Positions 15,168-52,490 of a stretch of DNA of 64,000 nucleotides are shown here, one piece after another (position 1 is the first letter of the stretch; every line of letters starts with the position of its first letter). Source of the stretch: Gentiana macrophylla (lineage: Eukaryota; Streptophyta; Magnoliopsida; Gentianales; Gentianaceae); NCBI GenBank assembly GCA_026214975.1, contig JAOBSW010000523.1, positions 143,064 through 207,063 of the forward strand. Reading direction: 5' to 3'. The notes below the pieces were generated by a model. That model was not told where the DNA came from and searched no databases. It saw nothing but the letters and a program-made list of their open reading frames with translations. A program made the translations under genes and the position numbers.

Positions 15168-16475
15168 TCAAATCCTTCCCGGTTTTCTTTCCTTTGGAAA
15201 AGAGTCTGTTTCCTCTTTTATGAAATATTCCGCCTGATACCAATTCACCAGGTCTGTGAACTTGGTTTGTATATTGTACGGAATACATATATCCTGATTC
15301 TTTTCCTCATCTTCTTGTATATATATTTTGTAGATGTGGTTTTGATATATTAATTCATGACGCAGCCATGAGAATGTGAGATGGTTCTTTTCCCAAAGAT
15401 TGAAGGCGATGGTTCTACTTCTCCATCTATCTATCTGTAGTCTTTTTGGATAATTGCATTTTATCATATATTCTAACTCTCCATTGTACCAGTTTCGTGT
15501 TGCTTGGTTGACCTGATATTTTTCTAGGAATATGATATGCTTTGCAGGTTCAAAGATATGATCTATCCATTCTGGAGATTTTGATTCGATGTTTGCCACC
15601 ACGCCACATTGGACAGAGCTGGAGGAGGATTGTTGTGATAGTATTTGGAAATCATTGATGATTTGTTTAAATTTGCTCCCCAGACAGCAGTTAGATATTG
15701 TATTAGGATGGAAGAGAATAAAATCGATCAATCCAAAGTCTAGGAGAGTTTGTATTGTAATTGTTTCTCCTTTGAACATTGTTCCATCTTGGTGGTGTAT
15801 ATTAAATTGCTAAAAGTCAATTGCACACTTATTTATCTTGTAATCTAGCGTGCAGCTACATGGTTGTCGTATACATTACGAATTTGTGGCATTCTTTTGT
15901 CCTGCTATGGTAGTATTCTTGTTGTATGAAGATTCCTTTAATACATAACTTTTTTTTAAGATGAAATCAAGAAATTCATGTATCTTTTCTTCCCTTGCTT
16001 CGAAGTTTTGTCGTGCAATGTTGAAGATATGTTGCCTTATTGTAACTGGTAATCCGAGTATTTGTGAATGAGGATGAAAAAATGTTTTTACTGGATCAAG
16101 AGGAGCTGATCCATAATCTTTTGATAGGTTTATGACAAGTCTATTTTTGAGATCAAGTATCTCTTTTTGTAGTTTATGATAGTATATTTGGAGGGAATTT
16201 TTCTTAAAACTCACCAGCGGCATATCGGACAAGTCACTGATCTCAGTTCTAATGACTTTCTCAATATAGAAATTGGCTCTATGTTTTCTAAATGCCAATT
16301 TTTTAGCTGGTGCTATTGTATGAAATCCGTAGAATATAGGATCAGGAACATTAATTGATTCTTTCACATGTGACCATGTTTTATATATTCCAGGGGTTTT
16401 ACCCTTCAATACCACAAAGTATTTAAAGTTACTTTTGGTGATAAAATATTTCTCAACATCTTGTAGACCTTTCAT
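15168..16475 (-). pseudogene. Component A1: viroplasmin-like domain and C-terminal domain
   Basis: Minus-strand frames at 15876-16475 and 15168-15779. The first (about 16290-16425) has the viroplasmin/RNase H1 N-terminal-like signature: YFVVLKGKTPGIYKTW followed by FYGFHT. This fold is known from caulimovirus inclusion-body proteins and binds nucleic acid. The second part has TIQTLLDFGLIDFILF, ESKSPEWIDHIFEPAKHIIF and RWRSRTIAFNLWE. It is shared with component B but unlike any family I recognise. An in-frame TAA at 16524-16526 separates protease and viroplasmin in this copy; copy A2 has a sense codon there. A frameshift lies near 15870. No reverse transcriptase is found between protease and viroplasmin, or after it. 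Confidence 0.75.
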
Positions 16476-16523
16476 GTATCTATCTTTATCATCCCTGCTT
16501 TGGTTAAGATGGTCAAGCAGGTT

Positions 16524-17093
16524 TTATTGATCTTTTGTTAATATATTGCCTTTTGTGCTTCTATATTTTCTTCTATGCTTGGAAACTTTGAAGACTGGTT
16601 TCATCTGTAATGAATTTTGCTCTTTAGCCAAAAGTTTTGGCTGAGATGCTTTATTATTATTAGGACTTTGTATCAACGGTTTGTCTTTTGTGGGTGTTTC
16701 AACAAAATCAAAATTTATAGTTTCGCTTCCAATATCAAAGTAAACAGATTTATTTCTGACTGTGTATGGTGTTATTAGTGCAATGAATGGTGTTCCTAAT
16801 ATTACTTTGTGATTCATATTTTTGATGAGGACGAAAGATATTTTTAACAAAAATCCATCTTTAGATTTTGATGCCTCAACCTTGGAATCAATTTGTAATT
16901 TAGAATTATTAGCAGTAGATAATTGATCAATGGTCTTTTGTCGGAAGTTTTTGGGTACTAGATCTGGTTGTATGCAATTAAGATCTGCCCCTGTATCAAA
17001 TAACGAAATTGTTTCGATATGGAAGTCTTTAGAGAAATATATTTTGATTTTCATTAAATATTGTTTTGATGTAATTTCTTTAAGGATGAACAA
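16524..17093 (-). pseudogene. Component A1: aspartic protease and linker
   Basis: A 189-codon minus-strand frame. The active site is SLFDTGADLNCIQPDL (Asp codon at 16995-16997), followed by a flap-region equivalent and the closing retropepsin motif HKVILGTPFIAL. It is expected to cleave the A polyprotein. About 75 basic residues follow and lead, after an in-frame stop, into the viroplasmin-like domain. In other caulimovirids reverse transcriptase and RNase H follow the protease directly; here they do not. The protease core itself looks intact. Confidence 0.85.
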
Positions 17094-17346
17094 GAAGTTT
17101 TCTGTAACTTTCTCAATTTCAGGATCATCATCCTTATCAGAAAGATTGTTATTATCGTTATTTAAGAAAAGGATATTTTTTATTTCTTCAACCTCTCATT
17201 TTCTATAATCCCATAAATCCTTCAATTCCTCTTTAATTTCCATTATTTGTTCTTGGAGTTTATTAAGTGTAACGTCATCCTTGGGTTTCGTTTTAAGGAT
17301 CTCTGTTAAGTCATAAGGTTTTCTTGGACTAACAGCTAACCTATTT

Positions 17347-19111
17347 TCATTTTTTCCTTATGGGGTCTAAGATTTTTTCAAGGTAGATTTGTTGAAGGTT
17401 AGGATCACTTAGATTTTTTAACACTTCAATTTGGAATTCCTGGTCCTTGGTAAGAACATAAATATGTTCTCCAGAGTTAGAGGCATCATGTTGACGTGTT
17501 TCCTCATTATCAGAAGAAGAATCCGTCTCAGACAAGTCATTGAGTAGTACTGATAACTTATTTGCTACCTCTTCCTCTATATTTAACTCTTGTAGTTTTT
17601 TATTAAACCTACAGTAGTTTTTCAGTATGTCCTTTTTTATGACATTTATAACATTCAATATCTTTATACCACGGTTTGGTATCTTGTCTTGGTTTGGCAT
17701 CTTGGTGCCTCTGGTGATAATCCCCTTTAGGCTTTTGAGGCTTCCTCTTCGGGTATTTCTTTTTGAAAGGTTCTTTGTATTGTTTGTTGCTACAATCCCC
17801 TTTAAATTTTAAAACAGGTTTTTGTTGATCTATATCAGACCGTGTACAAAATGTTCCTAGTTCTTGTTTAGTTTGCTTTAGCTCCCATTTTAGGTGCTTT
17901 TGAAGTTTTAAGTCTTGACATATTTTTAATCCTTCTTGCTGGGTTAAACAAACTAACTGTCCGTAGGTGAACTCATCATAGGGAATTATTTGTTTACAAC
18001 AATTTTCTCGGATCTTATTTCTGACCTTCTCTCCAAGGAGTGTTTGTAATCCGGCTAAGAATTTTTCTTTCCAAAATGGTTGGTTGGAGTCTTCTCTAAG
18101 CATTACTCTTGTTAGGAAGGTATTCTTGTAATACTGGAAATCACTTAGTTTTCTGCACCTAAGGTTAGATAGTAATTCCGCATTTTTATGCCTTATGTGA
18201 GATGGATCTCCTATGAAATATATAGAAATTGATAGAATAAGGGTGTCAACAGCATTTCGCTCCGCAAACCCACTAGAATTAATGTAAGTTTCTCCTCTGT
18301 CATTAGTTTTTACAGAATTGAGAATTCCATCTTGGTTTGTTGGGGTTAGGTAGAAATCCCACCATCCTTTTAGTTGTCCCGAAAAACCTGATATAATTGT
18401 TTCTGCTATGGTTTTATCAGATACATTTATATCATGTTTTCTAAAAATTTTAGCATACATGGTCATCTGTTGTAGTATGCCAAGTATCTCATATTCTTAT
18501 TTTCCATTTATGTTCCAATCATATATATAATCACTGCTAAACTGTGGTTGTGATATTGGTTTGACAGTGTATAGATCTCGAACAGAATCCCATTCAATCT
18601 TATTGATCAAATTTTCTCCTTCTTGGAACTGTTCTATTGTTTTATCAGAATCTGAACTGGAACCATGGTCTAGGGTATTTATCCTTTTATTTGAAGAGAT
18701 TTCAGCTGTGTCAGGAACCACATTGGTGTGACTATTAGTCATAGCCTCATTATATAGTTCCTCTTTAATCTTTTTTATAGTTTCCAGATATTCAGAATGA
18801 TTATCATTGAATTTTTTTCTACCCTCTTTAGATATTTGGAATGGTTTGAAGACGGGGTCTTGGTGTCTATTGGTAGAAGTCGTAATAATAGACTGGTTTT
18901 GAACAAGATCCTCAATCCTGTCAAGAAGTTTTCCTACTGTTTTGAGATGGATGTTGGTATAATTTAGTTGTTTGACTATATCCTTCCCCTCCTTATCACT
19001 AGGATCTGTTGGGTTACTAATAGGTATAGCTTCAACTTGTTCCTTCTCTATTCGTAAGATTATTCCTTGTAAAGGAGGATGAATAGACGAGACCTTTATA
19101 GCTTTATCCAT
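17347..19111 (-). pseudogene. Component A1: capsid-like region with CCHC zinc knuckle
   Basis: Three minus-strand frames. 18497-19111 starts after the WFxKNF domain and includes coiled-coil-like sequence (TVGKLLDRIEDLVQNQ) and an acidic Ser-rich linker. 17609-18466 is the capsid core, with SGFSGQLKGWWDFYL, a helix-rich segment similar in layout to caulimovirid/Ty3 capsid, and a Lys/Arg-rich stretch ending in CYKCHKKGH of a CCHC knuckle (about 17610-17652). 17347-17700 continues past the knuckle into an acidic tail. The last Cys of the knuckle falls in the next frame, so a frameshift sits at the knuckle. Copy A2 has the knuckle in one frame but lacks much of the core. Inferred role: coat protein that packages nucleic acid. 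Confidence 0.75.
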
Positions 19112-19114
19112 GGT

Positions 19115-19400
19115 TTCCCATTATACAATTCCTTTTTTCTCAGATACTGGATTAACAGTATTATTAAAAGGATAATCAATGGAGTTTTCAGAACAATATA
19201 TTTTAAACCAATTGAAGAACAATATATTGACTTTTTGTTTTATCACAAAATCATAAAATTGTTCTTGAATATATTGTCTTGTTTTTATGAAATTTTTTAA
19301 GAACCATATTCTTTTGATGTGGTTATGTTTAGCAACAAAATCATCATGGAAAAACTTCTTGTCGATCTTGAACTCCTTTTCTAGTACATTTAAAATTTTC
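19115..19400 (-). pseudogene. Component A1: conserved WFxKNF domain
   Basis: The minus strand here encodes RIWFLKNF, then DFVIKQKVNILFFNWFK and a short SIDYPF motif, with frameshifts at both sides. The same domain is in A2 (about 45440-45605), B1 (21060-21260) and B2 (29340-29520), placed after the movement protein in A and right after the N-terminus in B. I do not recognise the family. Because both components keep it, it probably serves a function each product needs. Confidence 0.65.
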
Positions 19401-19746
19401 CCAATATTTTCTGATACAGAGGAATAAGAGGGACTAGTGGGAGTATTACTGAGATCTTCATTAGATGTTAATTTGGAATAGGTAGTTTACTAGAGTAATC
19501 AATCTTCCTAATATGGGAATTTGGTATAACGGAGGTTGATTTCCTATGCTTGATTAGCGTGTTTGGTTGAAAAGTTTCTTGTGGGTTAAGAATACCTTGG
19601 TCAGAGATGACTTCAGGTTCCCTATGGCTTTGAGATTTTGTGAAAGAAATACCAACTCTTCCATCTTCATATTCCGTAACATAACTAAGTTGATTGTTTG
19701 GCCTTAAGTTGTTACTAGAAGATGGTTTGGTTTCTCCTTCGAGGAA
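19401..19746 (-). pseudogene. Component A1: spacer after the movement protein
   Basis: Minus-strand coding remnant linking movement protein to the WFxKNF domain, colinear with A2 45100-45440 but frameshifted. It is Ser/Thr-rich with no recognised motif. Confidence 0.55.
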
Positions 19747-20487: not shown

Positions 20488-20916
20488 CTATGCTTCTCAA
20501 CCTATTATATGGGGCTTGATTCTTACTACGGTTCTGAACAAAATAAGGATAAAATGCCTTCACCGAGGACTTACTACGCTTTTATACCGTTCGGGGCAAA
20601 TATGCTTATAAGAACACAATCCTTTCTACAACAAGGACGAGACGCGGTATGCAGACCTCTACACCACACACACACTACCCGCCGTGGCTCGATGCGAGCG
20701 GATTGAGCCACGATGGGGTAGTGTTGTGTGTGGTGTAGAGGTCTGGTATAGCCTGCGTCTCGTCCTTGTTGTAGAAAGGATTGTGTTCCTGCGAGCATAT
20801 TTGCCCCGAACGATACAGAAGGTGTTGTAAGTCCTCAAGTGAAGGCAGTTTATCCTTATTTTGATCAGGGACCGTAGTAAGAATACAAGCACCATATAAT
20901 AGGTTGAGAAGCAGAG
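20488..20916. repeat. Head-to-head inverted junction of A1 and B1 at the primer site
   Basis: Two arms of about 205-215 bp, near-mirror copies of the stretch between primer site and start codon, meet around 20695. The left arm runs on the minus strand to the A1 start; the right arm runs on the plus strand to the B1 start (20917). At the centre only remnants of the primer site remain (CGTGGCTC and GAGCCACG back to back). The leader proper is missing from both sides. Short frames inside (for example 20473-20706) are not genes. Confidence 0.85.
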
Positions 20917-21714
20917 ATGGATTCGCACCACTCTGGCTCTACTTCGTAGATCTAACTAGGAAGATAACGAACGGAGAAAATATTGATATATAAGATTATC
21001 AATTTACGATTGGTAAACTGCTAAAAATTGAACAGTCCTGAGAATAATAAAGAGTTCAAACCTGATAAACAATTCATTCACAATGATTTTTGTGCTGATT
21101 ATAACCTAGAGAAAAGAATATGGTTTTTCAAAAACTTCCTTAAAACTAGACAATATGTTCAAGACAAGTTCTATGAAATTGTCTTCGAATATAGGGTCAA
21201 TATTCTATTCTTTCAATGGTTTGAAATCTATCCATATGAAAATTCTATCAATTATCCTTTTAAAAACTCTCTTGATTTTTCTATTCCTTCATGGAAGATA
21301 ATTATTGATTCTAAGAAAAAATCGTATCATCATTTAGCTTTACATAAAGCGATGAGTAACGGCAAAACCTATTACACAGAATCAACAAAGAAAGAATCAT
21401 ATGTCTGTGAGAAAAAGGATAGAATAAATAAACAATCTTTAGGTCAAAAGGCCATCCCTATTCCTCCAACTTTCCAAAGTGAAATAATTAAAACAGGAAT
21501 AGAAACGACTGAGCCAATTAGAAAGGTTTTGGAGAATACTGTAAACTCTGTAGAAACCTCACAAGGCAATCATTCCTTTATGAACAGATAACTACTAGAG
21601 CAATTCTAGTTGAATATACATAAGTAATAATACACATGATGAGAAGATAATTCAAATTCCAACACAATCGTTGTTGATAGAGTTGGCTAATAAGGAAACT
21701 AAGAAAGATAATAC
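20917..21714 (+). pseudogene. Component B1: N-terminus and WFxKNF domain
   Basis: ATG at 20917 opens MDSHHSGSTSS and then hits TAG, because about 28 nt present in B2 are missing. Coding resumes by 21028 (187 codons to 21591) with NDFCADYNLEKRIWFFKNFL and YRVNILFFQWFEIYPY, the domain also found in component A. A Ser/Lys-rich stretch follows, with PIPPTFQSEIIKTG. There is no movement protein: the region that lies between N-terminus and WFxKNF domain in A is absent. The frame breaks before the solo LTR. Confidence 0.75.
21710..21714. repeat. Left target-site duplication of solo LTR (AATAC)
   Basis: AATAC before the insert; the second copy is at 23577-23581. Removing the insert plus one copy restores continuity with B2 (about 29990). 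Confidence 0.8.
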
Positions 21715-23576
21715 CGTTGGTCCCTTAGAAAGGCTAACACAAGGTTAGAGGGGGGGGGGGTGAATAAACTTGTCACCAAAAACATTCCTTAAGCTGGATT
21801 TTAAACAAATTATGGTTCAGTTAAAACTTGTGTGGAGTTAGGCTGACTGAGCTGAGTTTAAGTCAAACTGACTTAATCAAAACCGAGTCAACCGGTAGCG
21901 GATATAATTCTAGCCTTTTTCTTGATCTTGTTATTCTTTTATGAAAACTGAGTGTGGTAAATCGAATTACGATGAATGTCGGTTTAGAACTGTGAAGTGT
22001 ATAACAATCAATTATTAAAATGTTGTAAGTAAATGCTGAGTAAGTAAATAAATGCGTAAAGTAAATAAGGCAAATATTATAGAGTTTCCAGGTAGTGTAA
22101 TCCTGTACGTCCTCTCTTCCCCTGTGGTGTGGAGGAAAATTCCACTAGAACTTCTTGAGGTGAACTGTTACAAAAAGTCCTAAACAATAGTCCTTGGCTA
22201 ATCCCTAGCTTCTCTATCTAAACAGTTGTAGAATAGGTAGAGTTGTTGTTCTTCAAATGCTTGAACACTGGTCCTTAGAGGGTTGAATTGCCTCTTCACC
22301 AGCTACCACCACAAACACACACGCTGATCGTCTGTAATAACTCGCCCTTGACAAAAACCTTCCCGGTTTGCTTCACAGTCTGAACCTTTGATATATAATC
22401 AAGGTTGGATTGAGAATCAATGAATTGATTCTTGTTTGTGGTTCATCAAAGTGTCTGATCCTTGATAAATTCTTTGTAGCTTGAACACTTGAAGAAATTC
22501 TTGATATGATCTTGTTATAGCGCAGAGATGATAGCAATTCGAATGATTAATGCACAAGTTAATTCTAGTTAAATCTCTGTGTATCTATGTATATAATCCT
22601 TGGTGCAAAGTCCTCTATTTATAGTGTGAGGTCCAACGTTCATTTGGCTTGAATTCGAATTGTATCAACGTCTATCTTGTAACGGATATATTTTCTGACC
22701 GTTCTGTTGTGTCAGTATTTCATCCAATAAAATTGCTTCCTTTATAACGTTCGACTGTACTATCAGCTTGTTGGATGACTGACATATAAAACTGAGTTTC
22801 CTTATCAGTTTTATATTGAGATTATCACTTGTCAGTTTCTTGATTGACTTGGAGCATTATCTGAGATTTTACTCTTCTTTAAATATCAGTACTCCAGTTT
22901 TTCATCTGATTATATTTGACTTAATCAGAGTACACCATGACTCATTATCTTCTAAGAATTCATTGTCCTTATAATTCTTAGGTCTTCATACAAGATCCAT
23001 AAAGTCAGTTCAGGTCACCACAATCTTGCCTGAAGTGTAACTTTACAGTCTCAACGTAGTCTTTATAACTGAGTTTGAGCCCTCAGCTCTTCAATCTTCT
23101 GTAACTGAGTCTGTGACCCTCAGTTCTTCAATCTTCTACAACTCAGTCTGTGACCCTCAGTTCTTCAATCTTCTATAACTGAGTCTGTGACCCTTAGTTC
23201 TTCAATCTTCTATAATTGAGTCTGTGACCCTTAGTTCTTCAATCTTCTAGATAAGCCAACTGAGTCTGTGTCCCTCAGCGAGCTTATCTTCTTCAGTTTC
23301 ATATAGATGTAGTCTGAGTCAGTTTGTTTCTCTTGATGATTTCTAGTTTTCTAAATGACTTCCAGTTTTCAGTTTTACGACACACTAACTATTACAGTGC
23401 TTGTCTGATGTAACCTATACAAATATCAGACTCTAGTAAAGCCTAAACATTCAGTTCTAGACATCTTTTAGCTTTTCACTATAACAACTAGCTTCAGCAC
23501 TTCATCAATAAGGTTAAGGTAATACTTAGAATAATTATGATGAATTATCATCAAAACATAAATTTTATTCCCAACA
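21715..23576. mobile_element. Solo LTR of an unidentified LTR retrotransposon
   Basis: An 1862-bp insert in B1 with imperfect terminal repeats (CGTTGG at the left, probably from TGTTGG, and CCAACA at the right) and a 5-bp duplication. It has no coding frame, primer site or second LTR. A poly-G run followed by TGAATAA near 21750 resembles a motif common near the ends of some plant Copia LTRs; family assignment is uncertain. It contains a 37-bp minisatellite. It most likely arose by LTR-LTR recombination. Confidence 0.75.
23064..23284. repeat. 37-bp minisatellite in the solo LTR
   Basis: About five tandem copies of a unit containing AACTGAGTCTGTGACCCTC and CTTCAATCTTCT. The latter string ends at 23100, 23137, 23174, 23211 and 23248, exactly 37 nt apart. 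Confidence 0.9.
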
Positions 23577-24056
23577 AATACCAAAACAATAGTCCTAAAG
23601 CAAGACACTGTTGAAACCGAAGAGTCCAGTAAGGGTCAATTGGTTTCTATTAGCCAACATGTTCCTCCACGAATTCTCATCAGTACAACACCCATGTCTC
23701 TTGACGTGTATGATAATAATCTTACATTTGATGTGAACAAAGGCCTCAATATCAACCGAAAACATATTATGTCCACAAATCTGGACATAGTTATTGGAAA
23801 TAAATTGGATCATTTACAACAAATTAATCCCGACAAGGAAACTTTGAAAGGATCTTTAAACTTTATTAATGATTCATTTATCTTAAATCTTGATGATTTC
23901 CAAACCACTTTTCATTTGGAAACATCATTCAATACTAGACTATTTTGGAAAGTAAGATCTCTGAAGAAATTATTATTTCTTTTAAAAAGAAATTTTGAAA
24001 GATATAAGGTTTTAAATGACTACTTCTTTAAAGCACAATATATTGCACTATAAATG
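23577..24056 (+). pseudogene. Component B1: start of the unknown central module
   Basis: Continues the B1 frame after the solo LTR (137 codons, 23640-24053). It contains MSTNLDIVIGNKLDHLQQ, similar in layout to the KLLDRIEDLV coiled coil of component A, then FQTTFHLETS and a Lys/Phe-rich basic stretch. Aligned with B2 30060-30470. Ends at TAA 24051-24053; B2 reads on. Confidence 0.65.
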
Positions 24057-26347
24057 AAAGAGATAATCACAGTAATACTTATTTTTACTTAATCACCTTT
24101 CTTTCACATAGGCAATATATTAAAATATGTTTTAATAAGATATATAAAACCTCTATTTTTACTAATGTAAGAAACATTCGTCCATCTAACAAAAAGGATG
24201 TTATCCCAAGATTTGTTGGTCTAACTAGGTGCACTAGTTACAATCCTTTTGAATATTGCTTAACAACCTATTATGTTGACAAGAATATTTTTAAAGGATT
24301 TATCTTATACCAAAGTCATACTAGACCAATGAAGGTTCTTTACAATATGCGTCATAACTGGCTTGAAGACGCTAATATACATCAGCCAAATAGATTATGT
24401 GGTCATGATAAATCCAAAATCTTCATAAATTACTTTGGTACTATCAAAGATGAAGAAAGGATTTTTCAAAATACAAAACCACATTATCAAAATAACATTG
24501 GAAAAAACAAAATTCACCATTCGTACTATGTTCAAAATCCCAAAAAAGGACTATATACTTTTCCTAGATTAAACAATTCAACAAGATGTTTAGGAAAATC
24601 CGATAATGATAAAAACACATATTTTCTTAAAAGATATACGATGTTATGTTTTAAGTTAATAAATACCTTGTTACTCATTATCAATTTTATACTTGTTTAT
24701 GATCAAAGAGGAAGGCATGTCCTCTATCATCCCTTCATTATACAAGTTGGTGTCCTTTGTATAAAACGTCATTTTAAGTCTATTAGTAACCTTTACACCG
24801 ACATTATAAATACCTGTATAAGATATCATGTCAGTGCTTTAATAGAAACTTATGAAAGGTTTTCTTTGAAAAAACTTGGATTAAATAAAAAATCTAATAT
24901 CCAAGCCTTAGAGTTAAACAATAATGTTTCTTTAAGAAATATTTGTATCGTTGATTCACTCCAAATATTAATGCTAAAGATACTTATTATAACCTGTAAT
25001 ATCATTAGCATCAATTCAAAGGTTCGGTTATGGATAGCAATTAAACAACAGGCTAGAGTTCCAAAGAACCATTTTATTCATAAACATAACATTGTTAAAA
25101 ATGTAGAATCCACTTCTTTAAAAGTATCAGAAGTGATGAATCAGTCTTTAAGATTCAAAATTCTTCAACTAAAATTACATATCAATATCATCATGAATAG
25201 GTTACTTGTCAAAAAAGTAATTAATATTCAAGGCATGGTCCAACAAAAACATATACTATCCAAAGGTAATAATCCTTTAATTTTCCAAAATATATGTGCT
25301 TTACTACTAAGTCTCTATTCCAAATTCAATATAAAATCAAGATTCTGGAAAAAGCTAAATACTTACAAGAGGAACCATATTCTATTTGGACTATGTAAAC
25401 GGAATATGCATTTTGATTCAAATAACCACTATCAGATAAATATTGGTAAGGGTTTTTTAGATTTCATGAAATTATCTTATACCAATAATCATATAACACC
25501 AAAAAAGGAGAATATTAAATATTTTAAAACATTCCTTTATGACAAAAGGAAAGTTTTGAATATATCAAAACCGAGTTCTGATCAAAAAAATATATCAAAG
25601 ACAATAAGCACGGAGGAAAGGTCTTGTCAATCGCTAAAAGCTTCGTCACATATTTCCTTACAAGATTTGAGGTGTGTTCCTAATTGTGGAAGATATCCCA
25701 ACCATATTCATAATTCCTTTATTTTTTATCAATATGGATTGATTACTATAAACAGGAGACATGGAACATATTACCACAAATCTAATGACAATATTTCAGA
25801 CTCTACGAATAATAGAATCTCTGAGGAAAGAACAAAGCGATCTATTATCATGAAAGATCTGACTTGTATTGTTTATCAAGAACAATACATATTACAAAGA
25901 AATGATTCTATTCAAATAGCTTCCTACTGGTTTATATGGGTTCAAATCCTATTGAACACCTGGCCACTATTGAAATCTAGGATTCAATGTAAGATACATA
26001 TGAAATCCAGATATTGGTTACTAATGAAATCTAGGATTCTATGTAAGATACATATGAAATCCAGATACTGGTTACTTATGAAATCTCGGATTCTATGTGA
26101 AAAACATATGCAACCCAGATACTTGTTACTGATCAAAATCAAAAATACAATTATGATCTTCAGATTTCTGTATCTCCAGAAGGAATACATGATATATTCA
26201 TCTTCTCATGTAATAATGAATACCTTCATACAGATGAAATACAAGGAAGGATTACCATCACTACAATCAGAAGATATTACTTTCACAAGGTCCAAAAAAG
26301 AAATAGATGAGTTCCTCAAAGAATGGGGGAACAAGGAGGAGGCATAA
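24057..26347 (+). CDS. Component B1: large unknown module (672-codon frame)
   Basis: A single open frame from 24329 to 26347; related sequence in B2 (30646-32297) is colinear and in the same frame for its first part. Such length in strongly AT-rich DNA, and conservation of the frame between copies, argue that it is coding. The product is rich in Lys, Asn, Ile, Leu and Tyr. Conserved strings include FKGFxLYQSHTRP (the start reads in from upstream), CGHDKS, NPKKGL and NPLIFQNICALL. I see no YxDD, DTG, CCHC, helicase or movement-protein motif and cannot assign a family. Near the end an 18-residue unit is repeated three times. The frame ends at TAA 26345-26347, directly before the viroplasmin-like domain. 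It may be a pseudogene that happens to keep this frame. Confidence 0.55.
25972..26133 (+). repeat. In-frame 54-bp tandem repeat in B1
   Basis: Three units of 54 bp encoding variants of MKSRILCKIHMKSRYWLL. B2 has one unit at the matching place (about 32244-32297). Within the unit MKSR occurs twice, hinting at an older half-unit duplication. Confidence 0.85.
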
Positions 26348-27607: not shown

Positions 27608-28019
27608 CCAGGAAGACTTCAATTATCTTTACTATCAACTGAAGATCTATTCTATGAAGCGAGTTACCCTTGAAGATAAGTAATAGAAACATGGGACCCT
27701 TGTTTCCAACTATAAGTGCATTTTTCTATTTACGCCTTATTAAAGTAAGATTCCTTTACTATTCATGATTGACTATTTGGAAAAAGTAAGTTTCTCTTAC
27801 TATTCATGCTTGCCTTTATTGGCACCCAACTGCCTATATAAGCACAACTCGGGGCTCATTCAGAAGGAGGCAAAAGAGAGAGAGAAAGCTAGAAAAAGAA
27901 AGAAAGTTTTCTTTGAAAAAAACCTCCAACTCTTTTCTAGTTTCCAACTTCCAAATTTCTTCCTTCAATACTATAAATCTTTGTAATGTTCTTGATTGAT
28001 CTTTCTTCTATACTATAAA
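27608..28019 (+). promoter_or_regulatory. Viral promoter and R-like region after B1
   Basis: TATATAAG at 27835-27842, preceded by CACCCAACTGCC. Downstream come a GAGAGAGAGAAAGCT-rich stretch and CTATAAATCTTTGTAATG (about 27970), a candidate polyadenylation region, then the leader. Upstream of the TATA the sequence differs from the A-type promoters; downstream it is nearly identical. The short frame 27765-27986 is not a gene. Confidence 0.7.
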
Positions 28020-28616
28020 GAAGATAGATTCAACTTGAACGTTGATCTTTAAGTTGAAGTTAAGTCCAACTTGGACTTGTTTTTGAAGTTTGGTTCCACC
28101 TGGAACTTGTATAACAACTCCGGTGAGCGGTGGTTTCCGGCAACCGGTAGTCAAAGTTCCAGATCTACTAATCTTCTGCAAAGATCTACTATTCTTCTAT
28201 AAAGGTAGCTTCTTTACCTAAATAATATCATCTAATACATGTGGTTGTGATTATAAGCACCACCTTTTTCTTTTCTTTTTCTGTTTGCCAGACATCTGTC
28301 AAAGTCATACATGTCTATCGCTACGCGGACTACCGTATGAGATAAACGTGGCTCCGACGAATGAACAGTTGTTTCCGTCAATAGACTACTTACTGTTCTG
28401 CGAGATCTGTGGTGACTTTTTCAAATAAGATTGTGGGTTCTCACGATCGTTTAATACTGTTCCGTCGTACTGGTCCTTAATCCAGTTGTTACTTTTTTGT
28501 TATTTTATTTTTGTCATTTTATTTTTGTTATTTTACTTCTGTTATTTTATTTTATGTTTATACAACTAATCAATGAGTTATCTTCTCGATCATGATTATA
28601 GTATATATTATTATTA

Positions 28617-28678
<62 letters not shown>

Positions 28679-36295: not shown

Positions 36296-36376
36296 TTTCT
36301 TGCTGTGTAGGACTTGATTTATTCCTTAAGATAAGTTTTAGAGCTTTAGTAACCCCTCTCTTTTCTTAGTAACAGA

Positions 36377-43276: not shown

Positions 43277-43750
43277 ACCTGGAACTTGTATAACAACTCT
43301 GGTCAGCGGTGGTTTCCGGCAACCGGTAGTCAAAGTTTCAGATCTACTACTCTTCTGTAAAGATCTACTATTCTTCTATAAATGTGCTTCTTTACCTAAA
43401 TAATATCATCAAATACATGTGTTTGCAATTTTAAGCACCACCTTTTTCTTTTCTTTATCTGTTTGCTGGACATCTGTCAAAGTCATACATGTCTCTCGCT
43501 ACGCGGACTACCGCATGAGATAAACGTGGCTCTGACGAATGAACAGTTGTTTCCGTCAACATACTACTTACTGTTCCACGAGATCTGTGGTGACACTTTC
43601 AAATAAGATTGGGGGTTCTCACGATCGTTTAATAATGTTCCGTCCAACTGGTCCTTAATCCAGTTGTTACTTTTTTGTTATTTTATTTTTGTCATTTTAT
43701 TTTTGTTATTTGATTTCTGTTATTTTATTTTATGTTTATACAACTAATCC

Positions 43751-43769
43751 ACTGAGTTATCTTCTCAGT
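43751..43769 (+). other. Leader hairpin, loop TTATCTT (A2)
   Basis: Perfect 6-bp stem ACTGAG/CTCAGT around TTATCTT, same as 548-566. Confidence 0.65.
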
Positions 43770-43793
43770 CGTGATTATAGTATATATTATTAT

Positions 43794-43845
<52 letters not shown>

Positions 43846-43966
43846 TACTTATAATATAAAAAATATATAAAATATAAAATATAAAAAAGTTCGGTAATTA
43901 CAGACATATTTACTATTCATATTTATATTTATTATTCCCCTGTGTTATCTTCCCAGCTGGGCTCAT

Positions 43967-43985
43967 AACTGGTCATCTTCCAGTT
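43967..43985 (+). other. Leader hairpin, loop TCATCTT (A2)
   Basis: Perfect 6-bp stem AACTGG/CCAGTT around TCATCTT, third member of the series with a near-identical seven-base loop. Confidence 0.65.
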
Positions 43986-44107
43986 TATTGTTTATGTTCT
44001 TACTTTCTTTTTAATTTTTCACTTATTAATTGTATCTTTATGTATCGTTCTATATATGTATCCTTCCCCGTCCCGTTGTCCCCCCTTGCTCGATCACTGT
44101 GGCCATC

Positions 44108-44125
44108 TGGTATCAGAGCCACGAG
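44108..44125 (+). other. Primer-binding site of A2, tRNA-iMet
   Basis: TGGTATCAGAGCCACGAG: the first 13 nt equal the complement of the 3' end of plant initiator tRNA-Met, as in caulimovirids. Best preserved copy in the window. Confidence 0.88.
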
Positions 44126-44327
44126 GGGTTAGTGTTGTGTGTGGTGTAGAGGTCTGGTATAGTTTGCGTCTCGTCCTTGTTGTAGAAAGGATTGTGTTCT
44201 TGCGAGCATATTTTTCCCGAACGGTAAAGAAGGTGTAGTAAGTCCTCAGGTGAAGGAAGTTTATCCTTATTTTGTTCAGGGACCGTAGTAAGAATACAAG
44301 CCCCATATAATAGGTTCAGAAGCAGAG
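44126..44327 (+). other. Leader part between primer site and A2 start
   Basis: About 200 nt with no gene, nearly identical to 28941-29143. Confidence 0.75.
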
Positions 44328-44460
44328 ATGGATTGTCACCACTCTGGCTCTACTTCGTCTGATTCTGTTTCAATTCAGTCTAGTAATCGTTCAACTAAGA
44401 TAATAAACAGTGAAGAATACGCCATAGAAGATTTTAATGAGTCAATTGATAATTGGAAAT
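44328..44460 (+). pseudogene. Component A2: N-terminus of polyprotein
   Basis: ATG 44328, MDCHHSGSTSSDSVS then SSNRSTKIINSEEYAIEDF. One frameshift near 44455 separates it from the movement protein frame. AGGTAAGT at 44466-44473 matches a plant splice-donor consensus. Confidence 0.8.
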
Positions 44461-45610
44461 TCCTAAGGTAAGTAAAAAACATATCTATAAACCCTGCTGT
44501 CCTATCATATCTAATTATACTGTTAAAACAGAAGAAAGGGATATACAAATACAAAACCCCTCTGAAACTATTAGCCTACTTACTCCCAAAACTACACAAA
44601 AACACAGGGAACGAAAGTATGGATACATAAATATTGGTTTAGTTCAGGTTGGAATTAAACCCCACACAAAAGAAGGCTTAAATACTTCTATTATGGTTAT
44701 GCTCAGGGACGCTAGGCATACAAGCTATGAAGATTCCCTTCTCAGTTCAATTGAGTCCAGTCTTTGTACAGGACCTATATCTTTTAATTGTTTTCCAAAC
44801 CTTTCAGTATCACTCTCAGACAAAAATGTTTTGAAAATTCTAGTCTTGCATATAAAGACTCATAATTATAGTATGCTTGAAGGATCTATACCTATTGCAA
44901 TCATCTATAGAGTCTACTACAAGACTATGATGACATCTTTTGCAACTAGAGCAAGAAATACATGTCCAAAAGGCTCAACCCTTTTATTACAGACAGACTT
45001 CTCTCGTGCAAATGCTAATATCCCTAGAACTATTCAATGGAAAAGTATAACTATTCCTGATGAATGGTTCCTCGAAGGAGAAACAGAACCACCTTCTAGT
45101 AAAAACTTAAGGCCGAACAATCATCTTAGTTATGTTACAGAATATGAGGATGGAAGAATCGGTATTTCTTTTACAACATCCCAAAGCGTTATGTATCCCG
45201 AAAACCTCACTGAATCAAGTACTATAGATTTAGGAAGAGTTTCTCAAATTAATACACCAATTAAGCATAGGAGATCAATTTCTATTATACCAAATTCTCA
45301 TATAAGAAAGGTTGATTATTTGGGTGACACTGAAATACCTTCTACTCATGATGCTCCTTCTAGCCTGACTTATTCATCTGTATCAGAAAATATCGGGAAA
45401 AGGATCAATGTTCTAGAAAATGAATTTAGAGTCAACAAAAAGTTTTTTCATGATGATTTTGTGGCTGACCATAATAGCCACAAAAGATTATGGTTCTTAA
45501 AAAACTTTCTAGAAATAAGGCAAAATATCCGAGAACAATTTTATGATTTTGTGATAAAACATAAGGTTAATATATTGTTCTTCAATTGGTTTAAAATATA
45601 TTGCTCATAA
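44453..45610 (+). pseudogene. Component A2: movement protein and WFxKNF domain
   Basis: A 385-codon open frame. The 30K-type movement protein core spans about residues 50-205: SYEDSLLSSIESSLC (from residue 90), ISFNCFPNLSVSLSDKN, GSIPIAIIYRVYYKTM (from 144), PKGSTLLLQTDF (from 171) and IPRTIQW. A Ser/Thr-rich spacer (residues 220-320) leads to the WFxKNF domain (residues 330-384; HKRLWFLKNFLEIRQ, VNILFFNWFK). The movement protein would open plasmodesmata for cell-to-cell spread. This part is intact as read and 85-90% identical by eye to A1. The frame stops at TAA 45608-45610 inside the domain. Confidence 0.88.
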
Positions 45611-46735
45611 AATTCTATTGACTACCCCTTAAAAATATAGCTAATCCAGTCCCAGAGAAAAAAGGAATTATGGAATGGGAGACAAAAAATAGCGCCAAAA
45701 AAGTCCTGTCAAAACACCCACCTTTCCAAGAAATACTATTACCATTAGGAGAGAGAAAGGTTGAAGCAGTACCTATTAATGACCCTTTAGAACCAAATAG
45801 GAGGAGTATTGTATCACTAATAAATTTTACCAATACTTACCTAGGAGCTATAGGAAAACAAATTGAACGAATAGAAAGTCTGGTTCAAACCCATTCAGTC
45901 ATAATTAATAATCCAAACAAAGAGATATTAACTAAGAATATTAAATCCCAAGGTCCTATGTTTAAACCTTACTAGATATCTTCAAAAGGAAACAATGAGT
46001 ATACAGGAAGTAGCTCTACCTAAATTATTCTAGATACTCCTGAACGATATCAAGGAAAGCGAATAAACACTTTGAAACATATTACGATTGATGAGTACCA
46101 ACCATTGAAAAAACTCAAGATCAGGTCAATAAGATCGAGTGGGACTCTGTCCCAGATCTTAGTATTGCTAAACCAGTGTCCCAACCCCGGTTCAGTAGTG
46201 ACTCGATCTATGACTGGAATATCAATGGAAAATCAGAATATGAAATCAGAAGTGTACTACAACAAATGATAATGTATGCTAATGCATTTAGGACAAATAA
46301 TGCCCAAATTAGTGATTTTTTGGATTACAAGAATACTTTCTTAACCAGAATAATGCTAAGGGAAGATTCTAATCAACCTTTTTTGGAAAGAAAAGTTCTT
46401 AGCCGGTTTGCCTAATCTTAAGAGAGAACTAAAACAAACTAATCAGGAATTAGGTAATTTCTGTCAAAAATATGATATCAACTCACAACAACCAGTCACA
46501 AAATGCAAGGAGGAGGGTGGTTGTAGTACAAATAAAACACCCTCAAAAGATCATTTCACAACAAGAAAGAAAGAATCTAGGAAGAGATTCCAAGATAAGG
46601 ATTACTACCGTAATAATCCTTCGAGGAGAAAAAATATGAAGGTAGATACAAAGATATTGAATGCTACAAATGCCATAAGAAAGGACACACAGCAAATTAT
46701 TGTAGACTTAATAAAAGGCTACATGATTTAAACCT
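45611..46735 (+). pseudogene. Component A2: capsid-like region with CCHC knuckle, internally deleted
   Basis: Frames at 45670-45975 (coiled-coil-like, IGKQIERIESLVQTH), 46072-46269, 46176-46415 and 46408-46731. Relative to A1, about 130 residues of the core are missing near 46310 (the GWWDFYL segment) and a further 50 or so near 46412. The knuckle CYKCHKKGHTANYC is complete in one frame at about 46658-46700, preceded by a Lys/Arg-rich stretch. Because most of the capsid core is deleted, this copy could not make a normal coat protein. Confidence 0.75.
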
Positions 46736-47219
46736 AGAAGAGGAATTAACAAATAAAATATCCCTCTTGCTTAATGATACAAACACTGATTTCTCTGATA
46801 TAGAAAAGTGTATTCAGCAAGGTGTTATACTCTCCTCTACTACGGACTCAGGAGAACATATCAATGTTCTTACAAAAAACCAAGAGTTCCGGTTAGGAGG
46901 ATCAAAAGATATACATGATTCTAGCCTTTTTCAAAACTATCTTGAAAAAATCCTTGATCCCCTTAAAAATATGGATCATATAGAAAAAAGGAAACCTTAT
47001 GATCTAACAGAAATTCTCAAATTAAGACCAAATCTTGATATTACAAATGATATTCAGAATATGCTAAAAGACATTAGACTAGAAATAATCTCTTTTAAGG
47101 AATCTCAGGATTAAGAGATTGGTTTCATAAAGGATACTCTCTCAAAAACAGACCATCTAGAAAAGAAGAAAATATCAGATACATCCCTAAGATTTAAAGA
47201 AATATTCGTAAGAAAACAT
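46736..47219 (+). pseudogene. Component A2: acidic segment between knuckle and protease
   Basis: The frame 46767-47114 encodes an acidic, Ser/Asp-rich segment with DSGEHINVLTKNQEF, also in A1 (17347-17540). Its end (EILKLRPNLDITNDIQNMLK) is helix-like. TAA at about 47112 breaks the frame before the protease. Confidence 0.6.
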
Positions 47220-47497
47220 TTGGTAAAAATCACTATCCAATTTTCTGAATGTGTCAAGATTGATACTATCGCACTATTTGATACGTGCGCTGACCTAAAT
47301 TGTATTCAACCAGATTTAGTACCTGAAAATTTTAGGGAAAGAACCATAGATCAATTATCAGCCGCTAACAATTCCAAGTTACACATCGATGCCAAAACAG
47401 AGGCCTCAATAGTAAAAATGGATTTTTATTTAAAACAACTTTTGTCCTTGTTAGAAATATAAACCATACAGTAATCTTAGGAACCCCATTTATTTCT
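47220..47497 (+). pseudogene. Component A2: aspartic protease with altered active site
   Basis: The frame 47220-47462 has the retropepsin active-site region ALFDTCADLNCIQPDL. The catalytic Asp (GAT 47280-47282) and Thr are present, but the invariant Gly is Cys (TGC 47286-47288). The closing motif VILGTPFISL follows in another frame at about 47470. Colinear with A1 16524-17093, where the motif is a normal DTG. Inactive as read. Confidence 0.8.
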
Positions 47498-48361
47498 TTG
47501 ATTACTCCTCATACTGTTGCGTTGAAATCCATTTCATTTGATATTATGAATGAAATAATACAATTTGAATTCCTTGAAACATCTGAGGAAATTAATATAA
47601 AGAACAAAAATTTTGTTCAGAGTCTTGTAAAAAATAAAGGCTTCAGAAAGAAAAAATTATCAATAAATCATGTCTCCACTAAATTATCACAGATGGACTC
47701 ATGCTCCAAGAAAGAAACAAAATGTCAAAGCGCCACGGACAAAAAATTAGCACAAGATAACCAAAACCTTATTGATCAACTTTATCAAAATAGGGAAGAC
47801 AAGGTTGGACACTATAAGTGTCCACAGAATCTTGAAGAATACCTTGTTACTAAAAGTAACTTTATCTATTTTGTGATACTAAGGGGTAAAACCCTAGGAA
47901 TCTACAAAACATGGTCATTAATAAAAGACTCAATAAATGTTCATGATCCTGAATTTTATGGATTTCATACATTAAAAGAAACAAAAGCTTTAGCATCCAA
48001 AAGGCTGCAAAAGGATTACTACATTGAAAATATCATTAAAAACATCGATGATTGCCCAAAAATAAAGTTGCTATGCTTTGAAAGGCACTTATTAAAAATA
48101 GAGTGCCTAAAACTTGAAAAACATGTTCTTGAACTCAAGAACAAATTAACACACATGGATGAGTCATCTACAAAGACTCTTAATCCAGCAAGAATGTTCT
48201 TCTTTACCAACCGTCAGATTGGTGGTCTACCTGAAGAAATCCAGGACTGCATCTTTCAAAAGGTCTACAAAAGTTTTGAAGAAAAAGAGGAACGGATCCA
48301 TATGTTCCTTGAGGAAATCCTACAAAACAAAATCAAAGTCCATGGTATATATATCCAATAG
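47498..48361 (+). pseudogene. Component A2: linker and viroplasmin-like domain
   Basis: A 287-codon open frame. It starts within the end of the protease, then has a basic linker (QSLVKNKGFRKKKLSINH). The viroplasmin-like domain is at about residues 122-166 (47861-47995): YFVILRGKTLGIYKTW, FYGFHTLKETKALA. It then has a helical stretch and FFTNRQIGGLPEEIQDCIF, the start of the C-terminal domain. The protease, linker and viroplasmin order is continuous here with no room for reverse transcriptase. Confidence 0.8.
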
Positions 48362-49106
48362 GAATTTAGAAGAAGCACATGTAGGAATGGTTGTAAGCGT
48401 GATCTCTGTGGATCGCAAAATTGAATATAAAATAAACTTGTGCACCATTGATGCCTGGCTATTTTATGCTTATCACAAGGAGGGAGTTAAATATAGAGGT
48501 GAAAACATTACAGTCCAAACCCTATTTGGCTTTGGAGTTGTTAGCCAAATCGTCATTCCATCCAGTGAAGACCTTTCACATTTCAGTTATTTGGGGAGAA
48601 CATTCAAGAATGCGATCATCAAATACAAAGGGCTAGTCAACAAGGTCCACATCTTGATAAGAATCATTTCGAAATCTCTAGAATGGGTCAAACAAGTATT
48701 TGAACCGTCAACACAACTAGTACTCATTGAAGGCTACTCGCGTACAGATCTTATCCAAAGCATGATCCGGGTCAACAGAAAACATCATGATCCTCGTAAA
48801 GGTACTCTCAGAATTAACATCACTCGCTGGAGAAGTTCTAAAATTGAATCAAATCTAGATGAAGACAGAATACTTCCAGACTCCAATATACTCGTGTCTC
48901 AAAACAAGATATATAAAATATACATGGCATGCAAATTTACAAAAATAAGAAATAGGATGTCTACACACATTGAGGCCAGGACCAACTTCCCAGAGCTAGT
49001 AGAAAAATTTAAAACTGAGGAAAGGGCAACAAGGTGTATAACCTCACAACCAATCTTCATGGACAATGATAGCGATTATGAGAGTGATGATTTAACTCAG
49101 GGATAA
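48362..49106 (+). pseudogene. Component A2: C-terminal domain
   Basis: The last part of the frame 48159-49106, in register with family homology from about 48362 on: EYKINLCTIDAWLFYAYHKE, NITVQTLFGFGVVSQIVI, ISKSLEWVKQVFEPSTQLVL and ITRWRSSKIESN. It ends with an acidic tail (DNDSDYESDDLTQG). Homologous to the end of A1, B1 and B2 but the most diverged of them. Function unknown. Confidence 0.65.
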
Positions 49107-49470
49107 AGACACAGGCATTGGAAATAATATTCACTGTGGCTAATTGACAAGTAAAAGATACATGGGACCCATGTCGTCCATTATATCATGACCTTTACTG
49201 TTCCAATAGTAAAAGAAAGATTCGATTATTGTTCATATTTAGACCTATCTGGCACCCAACTGCCTATATAAGCACACCTTGGGGGCTCATTCAGAAAGGA
49301 GGCAAAAATAGAGAGGCAAAAGAGAGAGAGAAAGCTAGAGAAAGAAAGAAAGTTTTCTTTGAAGAAAACCTCCAACTCTTTTCTAGTTTCCAACTTCCAA
49401 ATTTCTTCTTTCAATACTATAAATCTTTGTAATGTTCTTGATTGATCTTTCTTCTATACTATAAAGAAGA
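49107..49470 (+). promoter_or_regulatory. Viral promoter and R-like region after A2
   Basis: TATATAAG at 49265-49272, preceded by CACCCAACTGCC. Upstream is a CATGGGACCCATG inverted repeat (about 49159-49171). Downstream are the GAGAGAGAGAAAGCT stretch and CTATAAATCTTTGTAATG (about 49418-49435) before the leader. The short frames at 49226-49432 are not genes. Confidence 0.72.
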
Positions 49471-50052
49471 TAGATTCAACTTGAACTTTGATCTTTAAGT
49501 TGAAGTTAAATCCAACTTGGACTTGTTTTTGAAGTTTGGTTCCACCTGGAACTTGTATAAAACCTCCGGTGAGCGGTGGTTTCCGGCAACCGGTTCAGAT
49601 CTACTACTCTTCTGTAAAGATCTACTATTCTTCAATAAAGGTAGCTTCTTTACCTAAATACTATCATCTAATACATGTGGTTGCGATTATAAGAACGACA
49701 TTTTTCTTTTCTTTTTCTGTTTGCCAGACATCTGTCAAAGTCATATATGTCTATCGCTACGCGGACTACCGCATGAGATAAAAGTGGCTCCGACGAATGA
49801 ACAGTTGTTTCCGTCAACAGACTACTTACTGTTCCGCGAGATCTGTGGTGGCTCTTTTAAATAAGATTGGGGGTTCTCACGATCGTTTAATACTGTTCCG
49901 TCCAACTGGTCCTTAATCCAGTTGTTACTTTTTTGTTATTTTATTTTTGTCATTTTATTTTTGTTATTTTATTTACATTTATTTTATTTTATGTTTATAC
50001 AACTAATCCATTGAGTTATCTTCTCAGTCATGATTATAGTATATATGATTAT

Positions 50053-50138
<86 letters not shown>

Positions 50139-50347
50139 TACTTATAATATAAAAATAATAAATATAAAATATAAAAAAGAAGTTCGGTAATTACCGACAT
50201 ATTTACTATTCATATTTATATTTATTATTCCGCTGGGTTATCTTTCCAGCTGGGCTCATAACTGGTCATCTTTCAGGTTAATGTTTATGTTCTTACTTTC
50301 TTTTTAATTTTTGTGCTTATTAATTGTATCTTTATATATCGTTCTAT
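49471..50347 (+). promoter_or_regulatory. Leader copy after A2, truncated before the primer site
   Basis: Same as 1-838, including the joint at its end. A long (TA)n tract spans about 50058-50136 and CGGTAATTACCG is near 50195. The frame 49933-50190 is chance translation of the TA repeat. Confidence 0.8.
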
Positions 50348-50647
50348 AAATGTGGGTCCCATGTTGTAAATATCATTGATAGTAACTTTTTTGTAGTAAA
50401 TGGTAATTTTGATGTAGTAACTTTTCATTACCATCAGGGCAATCACGTAAGCGACCAAATTGTTGTTTTCTTGTAATTCCTTTGGAGTATATATAATAAT
50501 ACTACATTTATCTTTGTCAAATGGTTTGATTTATCCCTTATTGTTCATATCCCTCAGACTTATACTAGTTGACAAGCTGATGATACTTGGTCTCTGCTCT
50601 TATTTATAGGTGAATAAAAGACATTTTTTTATAGGATTGTCGGGATC
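50348..50647 (-). pseudogene. Inverted component B tail fragment (second copy)
   Basis: Same content and same two joints as 838-1130: minus-strand end of the B coding region and 3' non-coding stretch, between plus leader and inverted leader. Confidence 0.75.
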
Positions 50648-50806: not shown

Positions 50807-50870
<64 letters not shown>

Positions 50871-51470
50871 ACAATATAATAATAATATATACTATAATCA
50901 CGACTGAGAAGATAACTCAATGGATTTGTTGTATAAACATAAAATAAAATAATAGAAATAAAATAACAAAAATAAATTGACAAAAATAAAATAACAAAAA
51001 AAGTAACAAATGGATTAAGGGCGGTTGGACGGAACGATATTAAGCGATCATGAGAACCCTCAATCTTATTTGAAAGATTCACCACAGATCTCATGAGCGA
51101 GAAAGTAGTGCATTGGCGGAAACAAGCTGTTCATTAAATCGGAGCCACGTTTATCTCATGCGGTAGTCCGCGCGTAGCGATAGACATGTATGACTTTGTG
51201 GATGTCCGTAAATGTAAAAGAAAAAAAAAAGGTGGTGCTTATAATCGCAACCACATGTATTAGATGATAGTATTTAGGTAAAGAAGCTACCTTTATAGAA
51301 GAATAGTAGATCTTTACAGAAGAGTAGTAGATCTGAAACTTTGACTACCGGTTGCCGGAAACCACCGCTCACCGGAGTTGTTATACAAGTTCCAGGTGGA
51401 ACCAAACTTCAAAAACAAGTCCAAGTTGGACTTAACTTCAACTTAAAGATCAAAGTTCAAGTTGAATCTA
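50648..51470 (-). promoter_or_regulatory. Inverted leader (second copy)
   Basis: Complete inverted leader, uninterrupted here, colinear with 1131-1327 plus 14226-14805. A (TA)n tract lies at about 50817-50866. The stretch 51030-51210 has many differences from other copies at CAG/CTG positions. Confidence 0.8.
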
Positions 51471-51743
51471 TCTTCTTTATAGTATAGAAGAAAGATCAAT
51501 CAAGAACATTACAAAGATTTCTAGTATTGAAAGAAGAAATTTGGATGTTGGAAACTACAAAAGAGTTTGAGGTTTTCTTCAAAGAAAATTTTCTTTCTTT
51601 CTCTAGCTTTCTCTCTCTCTTTTGACTCCTTCTGAATGAGCCCCCAAGGTGTGCTTATATAGGCGGTTGGGTGCCAGATAGGTCCAAATATGAATAGTAA
51701 TCGAATCTTTCTTTTACTATTTGAATAGTAAAAGTCATTATAT
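51471..51743 (-). promoter_or_regulatory. Inverted promoter and R-like region
   Basis: Minus-strand TATATAAG at 51654-51661 and the usual downstream block. It breaks off at about 51744 where the plus-strand A tail fragment begins. Confidence 0.7.
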
Positions 51744-52490
51744 AATGGATTCAGAAGAAGCACATGTAGGAATGGTTGTAGGCAGTATCTCTGTGGCTGA
51801 AAAATTGAATATAAAATAAACTTGTGCACCATTGATGCCTGGCTATTTTATGCTTATCACAAGGAGGGAGTTAAATATAGAGGTGAAAACATTACAGTCC
51901 AAACCTTATTTGACTTTGGAGTTGTTAGCCAAATCGTCATTCCATCCAGTGAAGACCTTTCACATTTCAGTTATTTGGGGAGAACATTCAAGTATGCGAT
52001 CATCAAATACAAAGGGCTAGTCAAAAAGGTCCACATCTTGATAAGAATCATTTCGAAATCTCCAGAATGGGTCAAACAAGTATTTGAACCGTCAACACAT
52101 CTAGTACTCATTGAAGGCTACTCGCGTACAGATCTTATCCAAAGCATGATCCTGGTCAACAGAAAACATCATGAACCTCGTAAAGGTACTCTCATAATTA
52201 ACATCAATCGCTAGAGAAGTTCTAAAATTGCATCAAATCTAGACGAAGTCAGAATACTTCCAGACTCCAATATACTCGTGTATCAAAACAAGATATATAA
52301 AATATACACGGCATGCAAATTTACAAAAATAAGAAATAGGATGTCTACACACATTGAGGCCTGGACCAACTACCCAGAGCTAGTAGAAAATTTTAAAACT
52401 GAGGAAAGGGCAACAAGGTGTATAACCTCACAACCAATCTTCATGGACAATGATAGAGATTATGAGAGTGATGATTTAACTCTGGGATAA
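51744..52490 (+). pseudogene. Component A tail fragment (A3)
   Basis: A near-identical copy of A2 48362-49106, the C-terminal domain of component A, joined at its 5' side to inverted promoter sequence. Two frames, 51822-52214 and 52278-52490, are split by a TAG at about 52212. It probably arose by local duplication of the A2 end. Confidence 0.75.

Follow-up and report, generated by a model that had tools for sequence, protein, structure and literature searches.

A stretch of 64,000 nucleotides from Gentiana macrophylla (contig JAOBSW010000523.1; hereafter the window) carries integrated pararetrovirus-like units of two types, A and B, neither of which encodes a reverse transcriptase (RT), and the question raised by this locus is what could have copied them. 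A preliminary description, made from the letters of the window, proposed that A and B are components of a multipartite virus, or satellite-like genomes, served by the polymerase of a third component or of another element, and named a third unit type with RT and RNase H behind the same leader as the support to look for. Such a type, C, is present in the same genome: two units, C1 and C2, were read, and a further case on C8 is known by its coordinates. Given that this third type joins the enzyme to the same control region, the three types are likely parts of one split virus, and we consider it probable, judging by sequence comparison, that there were at least three pararetroviral components with one control region in common, two of which left integrated copies in the window, B being probably dependent or satellite-like. 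The multipartite proposal is supported in this amended form, with at least three components, and the pairing of A with an RT component repeats what is described in the available parts of Geering et al. (2014; PMC4241990) and Chen et al. (2017; PMC5491270). Earlier proposals of split reverse-transcribing genomes concern, in the accessible portions of this literature, a small number of fossil pararetroviruses, each time with two parts or with a helper pair; in the present case, sequence alone led to the prediction of a polymerase component that the window lacks, and the same genome proved to contain it.

Unit types A, B, and C and their common control region

Alignment confirms the four units at the places first described for them (A1, B1, B2, and A2; Table 1), together with their common leader, primer site, and about 15 first codons, and A and B diverge from each other at one position. 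Units of types A, B, and C all start with this leader and these first codons and close with the same intergenic region (IR). In the Caulimoviridae the leader opens with a tRNA-Met primer site, and the 12-mer TGGTATCAGAGC, which we take to be this site, stands there exactly in A2 and with one mismatch in B2, its first bases having been lost from A1 and B1 at the head-to-head joint between them. With two mismatches allowed, the 12-mer is not significant alone (13 of 100 shuffles reach six matches), and its position is what counts.

The leaders do not sort by component. The comparison covered 38 distinct leaders 200 nt or longer (22 A, 15 B or C, and 1 untyped); on average, A leaders are 0.937 identical to one another, B/C leaders (C2 set apart) 0.942 to one another, and A leaders 0.939 to those of B/C. 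A within-minus-between difference as large as the observed 0.0002 arises in 912 of 2000 shuffles of the labels (n = 37). The C1 leader is 0.926 identical to those of A and 0.933 to those of B/C. The IR pieces of the window are 92–98% identical in their first part (6 copies) and 89–96% in their second (7 copies); no informative site in these IR copies unites the two B copies, and the informative sites mainly pair copies with a common rearrangement. In contrast, the C-terminal blocks are 65% identical between B1 and B2, 56–59% between A1 and B, and 48–51% between A2 and the other three, which indicates that the control region has been kept alike while the coding parts diverged. A1 and A2 are 5–9% apart from the leader into the movement protein (MP; 44107–45300 and 19500–20698) and from there to the IR mostly 30–45% apart, a pattern that an exchange of leader and MP along with the IR would produce. 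In-register neighbors include B-B-A in the window and, elsewhere, A-A, A-B, B-A, B-C, and C followed by a B/C-type start. The IR-to-IR spacing is 6,223 bp for B2 and 6,258 bp for A2, close to the lengths first given, and the earlier estimate of about 6.8 kb for an intact A agrees with two A leaders that stand 6,800 bp apart elsewhere on the contig of the window (C173, at 130993 and 137793).

Pfam matches in A are to MP (1.6e-21), DUF7588 (2.4e-14), DUF7746 (3e-15), Caulimovir_coat (5.9e-12), RVP (3.6e-5), and Cauli_VI (3e-9), and the CCHC knuckle of A2 reaches an E value of 0.16 at best. The A1 coat is closest to coat proteins from plant genomes (218 proteins at E ≤ 0.001, the best with 61% identity over 90%). 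In the B pieces nothing is above the cut-off apart from DUF7588 in B1 (2.6e-14). The viroplasmin-like domain ascribed by the preliminary description to both types is borne out by Pfam in A; the segment of B is recognized solely through 26–41% amino acid similarity to the Cauli_VI region of A. Sequence comparison finds a C-terminal domain common to A and B, and that of A1 belongs to no Pfam family.

No RT or RNase H was found by Pfam in the A or B pieces of the window (30 partly overlapping pieces, including one fragment from outside the four units; E ≤ 0.1 or 1). In A1 and A2 the protease is followed directly by Cauli_VI, with no space for an RT, and the same order occurs in ten more A units (L031, L033, L034, L035, L036, L037, L038, L041, L042, and L044), so that the arrangement is uniform in all 12 readable A units. 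An RT match is absent from these 12 and from the six B units readable across the module and the C-terminal domain (B1, B2, L040, L043, L046, and L050), in the window and at the loci L031–L050 described below. A hidden RT in A or B was rejected on the same Pfam result and on a tblastn search with a Ty3 RT piece, which was negative there though it finds the RT of C at about 40%. The earlier statement that the system lacks an RT therefore stands for A and B and fails for the whole, since C carries one.

Type C was met by searching the 1.79-Gb genome of the window with the A2 leader. The best 40 of 207 candidates were scored, giving among the matches listed 41 rows at 40 places, two of them in the window, and 9.9 kb downstream was read at 20 of the 38 places outside it (L031–L050), most of which are A or B. 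C1 (L049) consists of the leader, the same first codons, a B-like DUF7588 segment, a protease, RT, RNase H, a further open reading frame (ORF), and the IR, with 6,040 bp from its leader to the next. Pfam recognizes RVT_1 (3e-20), RT_RNaseH (1.5e-12), and DUF7588 (2.9e-8); the protease is 49% identical in amino acids to that of A by tblastn and does not reach the Pfam RVP threshold. No MP or coat was found in C1, and an integrase query had no match in it. Its leader is 94% identical to the shared leader and its IR 95% identical to that of B1. C2 (L046) stands behind its own leader after a B unit and is 89% identical to C1 over 3.7 kb, the stretch read ending behind the RT/RNase H region; on C8, the coordinates put 2.87 kb between a leader and an RT downstream of it. 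One apparent fusion of A with an RT (L032) was rejected: an integrase match follows its RT, and we read it as a long terminal repeat (LTR) element inserted behind the MP. At another locus (L045, reverse strand, 93–1669), an A-type leader, MP, and part of DUF7588 are followed by a piece of B module, possibly an A/B recombinant.

The set that defines the Caulimoviridae (MP, coat, retropepsin, and RT–RNase H without integrase) is present in A and C jointly and in neither alone. We hypothesize that A would supply MP and coat and C would supply RT and RNase H, that the RT of C would copy all three components from the common primer site and promoter, that the coat of A would package all three, and that recombination or template switching would keep the shared region alike. 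The Caulimoviridae have episomal circular double-stranded DNA, and the components, at hand as integrated copies, may have existed as separate circles of this kind.

Lineage and central module of B

The C-terminal domains of B form a single clade (support 0.995) with at least three deep branches in a midpoint-rooted FastTree phylogeny (17 sequences, 278 columns; L031 was too short and was left out), and third codon positions are the most divergent in all five comparisons with B1. Together, the single clade and the third-position excess indicate that B is a lasting lineage and not a set of fresh deletions; B as a recent deletion product of local A copies was rejected on the same clade. B has no replication or structural gene, shares the cis-acting region, and has its own lineage, as a satellite would, and because those genes are missing it presumably depended on a helper.

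What B carries in place of these genes is a module that in B1 comprises 771 stop-free codons, compared with a longest run of 179 in 1000 Markov sequences. Indels between B1 and B2 are divisible by three in 17 of 23 cases over the whole module and in 8 of 8 at 24105–25327; against B1, the counts are 7/7 in L043, 7/9 in L041, 8/10 in L050, 5/6 in L040, 6/20 in L046, and 0/5 in L048, many of the indels across copies being shared events. L048 is the closest relative of B1, and its indels are of single bases only, the pattern expected after integration. Substitutions between the B1 and B2 modules are spread evenly across codon positions at 17% divergence (p = 0.92), and also at 28–35% in two 3′ blocks; the adjoining C-terminal domain differs by 0.29, 0.17, and 0.52 at the three positions (p = 4e-12), and the IR copies, for comparison, by about 6%. 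Acidic residues make up 0.061 of the module and 0.060 of stop-free random DNA, and they lie 1.4 to 3.8 standard deviations above their own null in 9 of 9 other viral pieces. The B1 module also contains an in-phase tandem repeat at 25966–26137 (54 nt, or 18 codons, in 3.2 copies).

The first 1.57 kb are common to B and C (82% between C1 and B2), and patches of the module resemble the RT region of C in some copies. On the basis of this common start and these patches, we infer that B may combine a start of C type with an end of A type, the polymerase region between them having been lost. We propose that the middle of B, between a C-like 5′ end and an A-like 3′ end, would consist largely of filler and might descend from a polymerase region that decayed or was replaced. 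Keeping it open would allow translation to run on into the conserved C-terminal domain, or the transcript to escape nonsense-mediated decay, and would hold the unit at a packageable length. The full proposal, that of a three-component reverse-transcribing virus in which B is a long-lived separate lineage with a stuffer kept in frame but free in sequence, probably from a dead polymerase region, we regard as evenly balanced between true and false.

Several observations weigh against pure filler or weaken the case for it. In its 5′ half the module shows a three-base periodicity attained by just 1 of 500 null values, the junction of the module with the upstream frame differs among copies, the RT ancestry is patchy, and whole-composition distance has low power, since it fails to tell real domains apart from the null as well, and lends filler no support. 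In an alternative that we judge unlikely, the module codes for a fast-evolving protein, for example one shaped by an arms race between virus and host, and B is a full third part of the genome: the 771 open codons, the eight indels in threes, the 5′ periodicity, and the lasting lineage all agree with it, but a protein is hard to reconcile with even codon positions at either level of divergence, with acidic residues at the random level, with a search of length-matched candidates that gave no homologue at E ≤ 1, and with a 3′ half without periodicity (reached by 316 of 500 null values), although some real domains behave likewise (74 of 500 for the A1 coat). Being free of enzymes, B would represent a satellite-like lineage that persisted for long within this virus family, and with its module it becomes testable which selection holds a long frame open when the protein sequence seems not to matter.

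A monopartite relative and known split systems

To place coats, RTs, and leaders relative to each other, we joined by position 150 RT rows (the best 150 of 27,616 candidates), 134 coat rows (the best 133 of 825), and the 40 leaders; the counts below are among these matches. Coats at least 63% identical to that of A1 were called A-class and RTs at least 80% identical to that of C1 C-class, limits that were chosen after the lists had been seen; some copies are in two pieces and thus count as two rows. No RT lies within 4.5 kb downstream of any of the 59 A-class coat rows, and no coat upstream of the seven C-class RT rows. By comparison, 30 of the 75 other coat rows (below 63%) have an RT within 4.5 kb downstream, and an upstream coat accompanies 27 of 59 RT rows of 67–76% identity and 3 of 84 of 60–66%. 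The rows with both coat and RT represent a relative that is monopartite, occurs in many copies in this genome, and serves as a positive control for the method. In one example (C11:84197921-84202484), coat, RT, and a C-like downstream ORF stand in one unit, and C-like ORFs follow several RTs of 67–76% identity.

This relative, and the commensal pair eRTBVL/eRTBVL2 proposed in the available parts of Chen et al. (2017; PMC5491270), could suggest that A and B (and C) are non-autonomous elements served by a complete monopartite virus, with C incidental. We find this quite improbable: the shared leader, which class C has, is absent within 7 kb upstream of all 143 non-C RT rows, and likewise within 3.5 kb of all 75 other coat rows. 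That the copies are mere deletion derivatives of one monopartite virus, arisen during or after integration, fits the many truncated or rearranged copies and the deletions in the coat region of A2 but is very improbable given that a fused parent, which the preliminary description had named as its own refutation, appears in none of the A-class coat rows, C-class RT rows, or readable A and B units, that the readable A units share one protease-to-Cauli_VI order, and that B is its own clade.

The split-virus interpretation also faces difficulties. C is far rarer than A and B, and the counts rest on the best-scoring candidates given above. A leader within 3.5 kb is listed for only 2 of the 7 C-class RT rows, with C2 a further case read directly, and for 11 of the 59 A-class coat rows; these low counts arise in part because the leader list holds the best 40 of 207. 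The C2 leader is just 0.90 identical to the others, and the downstream ORF of C compared with the C-terminal part of A and B gives Smith–Waterman z values of -1.2 to 2.6 (18 piece comparisons).

Differing coding parts behind one common control region are familiar from the components and satellites of nanoviruses and begomoviruses, but these have single-stranded DNA and no RT. Non-autonomous LTR retrotransposons lack enzymes, retain cis-acting sequences, and borrow the RT of a partner; unlike A, B, and C, such partners have LTRs and an integrase and no MP or caulimovirid coat. The closest parallels are pararetroviral. In the available parts of Geering et al. (2014; PMC4241990), bipartite florendoviruses (VvinBV, VvinDV, OsatBV, and a Sorghum bicolor virus) comprise, like A, a component with MP, coat, protease, and a C-terminal extension but no RT, and, as here, an RT component without coat, near-identical IRs, compound insertions, and sizes of 5.5–6.9 kb. 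A and C are complementary in the same way, one without RT and the other without coat, and IRs more than 90% identical between components are matched by the 95% of C1 to B1, with 0.90 for the C2 leader. The florendoviruses of that account have exactly two components rather than three, with nothing like B described in those parts of it, and here the third type, B, is abundant and C is also without an MP match. Homology between the C-terminal extension and the ORF of the RT component is reported for the known pairs, whereas none is clear between A and C (best z 2.6).

Chen et al. (2017; PMC5491270), in the portions available, describe complementary non-autonomous pararetroviruses of grasses (ePVCVL/ePVCVL2 and eRTBVL2) with homogenized IRs, cite nanoviruses for concerted evolution, and report two-partner systems in which, as here, the control region stays alike while coding parts diverge. 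There, eRTBVL2 resembles B in lacking an RT, which a domain of unknown kind (SFKTE) replaces; however, ePVCVL2 keeps MP and eRTBVL2 keeps MP, coat, and protease, none of which B has. A 2023 review (PMC10377300), as far as its accessible text goes, restates the bipartite cases and names beet. The A and C pair is an already known kind, that of the bipartite florendoviruses and of ePVCVL/ePVCVL2; it is B, without enzyme, coat, or MP, that makes the system new relative to the known pairs, and no third component of its kind was found in literature searches of open-access sources, most subscription journals lying outside their scope.

Layout of the window

Self-comparison of the window reveals one rearranged viral cluster at about 14.1–54.4 kb and an extra IR piece at 1–1325. 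Of the four large units in the cluster, A1 lies on the minus strand and the others on the plus strand, B1, B2, and A2 following each other head to tail and in register.

Table 1. Positions of viral units, domains, and insertions in the window
Feature	Position	Strand	Remarks
Unit A1	14155 (about)..20698	-	Leader, MP, DUF7588, coat region, protease, Cauli_VI, C-terminal domain, IR
C-terminal domain of A1	15168..15776	-	
Cauli_VI (viroplasmin-like) domain of A1	15879..16475	-	
Retropepsin of A1	16527..17093	-	
DUF7746 and caulimovirus coat domain of A1	17612..18466	-	
DUF7588 of A1	19124..19486	-	
Head-to-head joint A1/B1	20684..20712		Inside their primer sites; few bases in between
Unit B1	20705..28922	+	Leader, DUF7588, insert, module, VI-like segment, C-terminal domain, IR
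DUF7588 of B1	21028..21588	+	
Insert of B1	21716-23576		About 1.84 kb, missing in B2; holds 37-bp tandem repeat at 23060-23249
Module start of B1	23562..24050	+	42% amino acid similarity to C
Module of B1	24032..26344	+	771 open codons
VI-like segment of B1	26348..26584	+	Similarity to A; without Pfam match
C-terminal domain of B1	26588..27604	+	One internal stop
Unit B2 as far as LTR element	28923..34325	+	Its IR resumes at 43277
Primer-binding site of B2	28924..28935	+	One mismatch
Module of B2	29990..32208	+	Broken frame
C-terminal domain of B2	32612..33727	+	One internal stop
Ty3-type LTR element inside IR of B2	34326-43276		LTRs 96% identical; duplication ACCTG (5 bases)
Remaining IR of B2	43277..44106	+	Continues into A2
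Unit A2	44107..50348 (end about)	+	Make-up as A1; coat region with deletions
Primer-binding site of A2, TGGTATCAGAGC	44108..44119	+	Exact
MP domain of A2 (PF01107)	44507..44926	+	
DUF7588 of A2	45437..45604	+	
Retropepsin of A2	47115..47459	+	E 0.0068, below cut-off
Cauli_VI domain of A2	47498..48358	+	
C-terminal domain of A2	48360..49103	+	
LTR-type element inserted in viral cluster	1325-14221		Repeats about 2.26 kb, 97% identical

The joint between A1 and B1 looks like a ligation of two molecules that were opened at the primer-site discontinuity. An inverted junction, composed of IR, an inverted piece of the 3′ end of B, and inverted IR, is present twice, at 1–1325 and at 49472–50845, and the 91% identity of the two copies suggests that a single rearranged structure underwent either duplication or a second integration.

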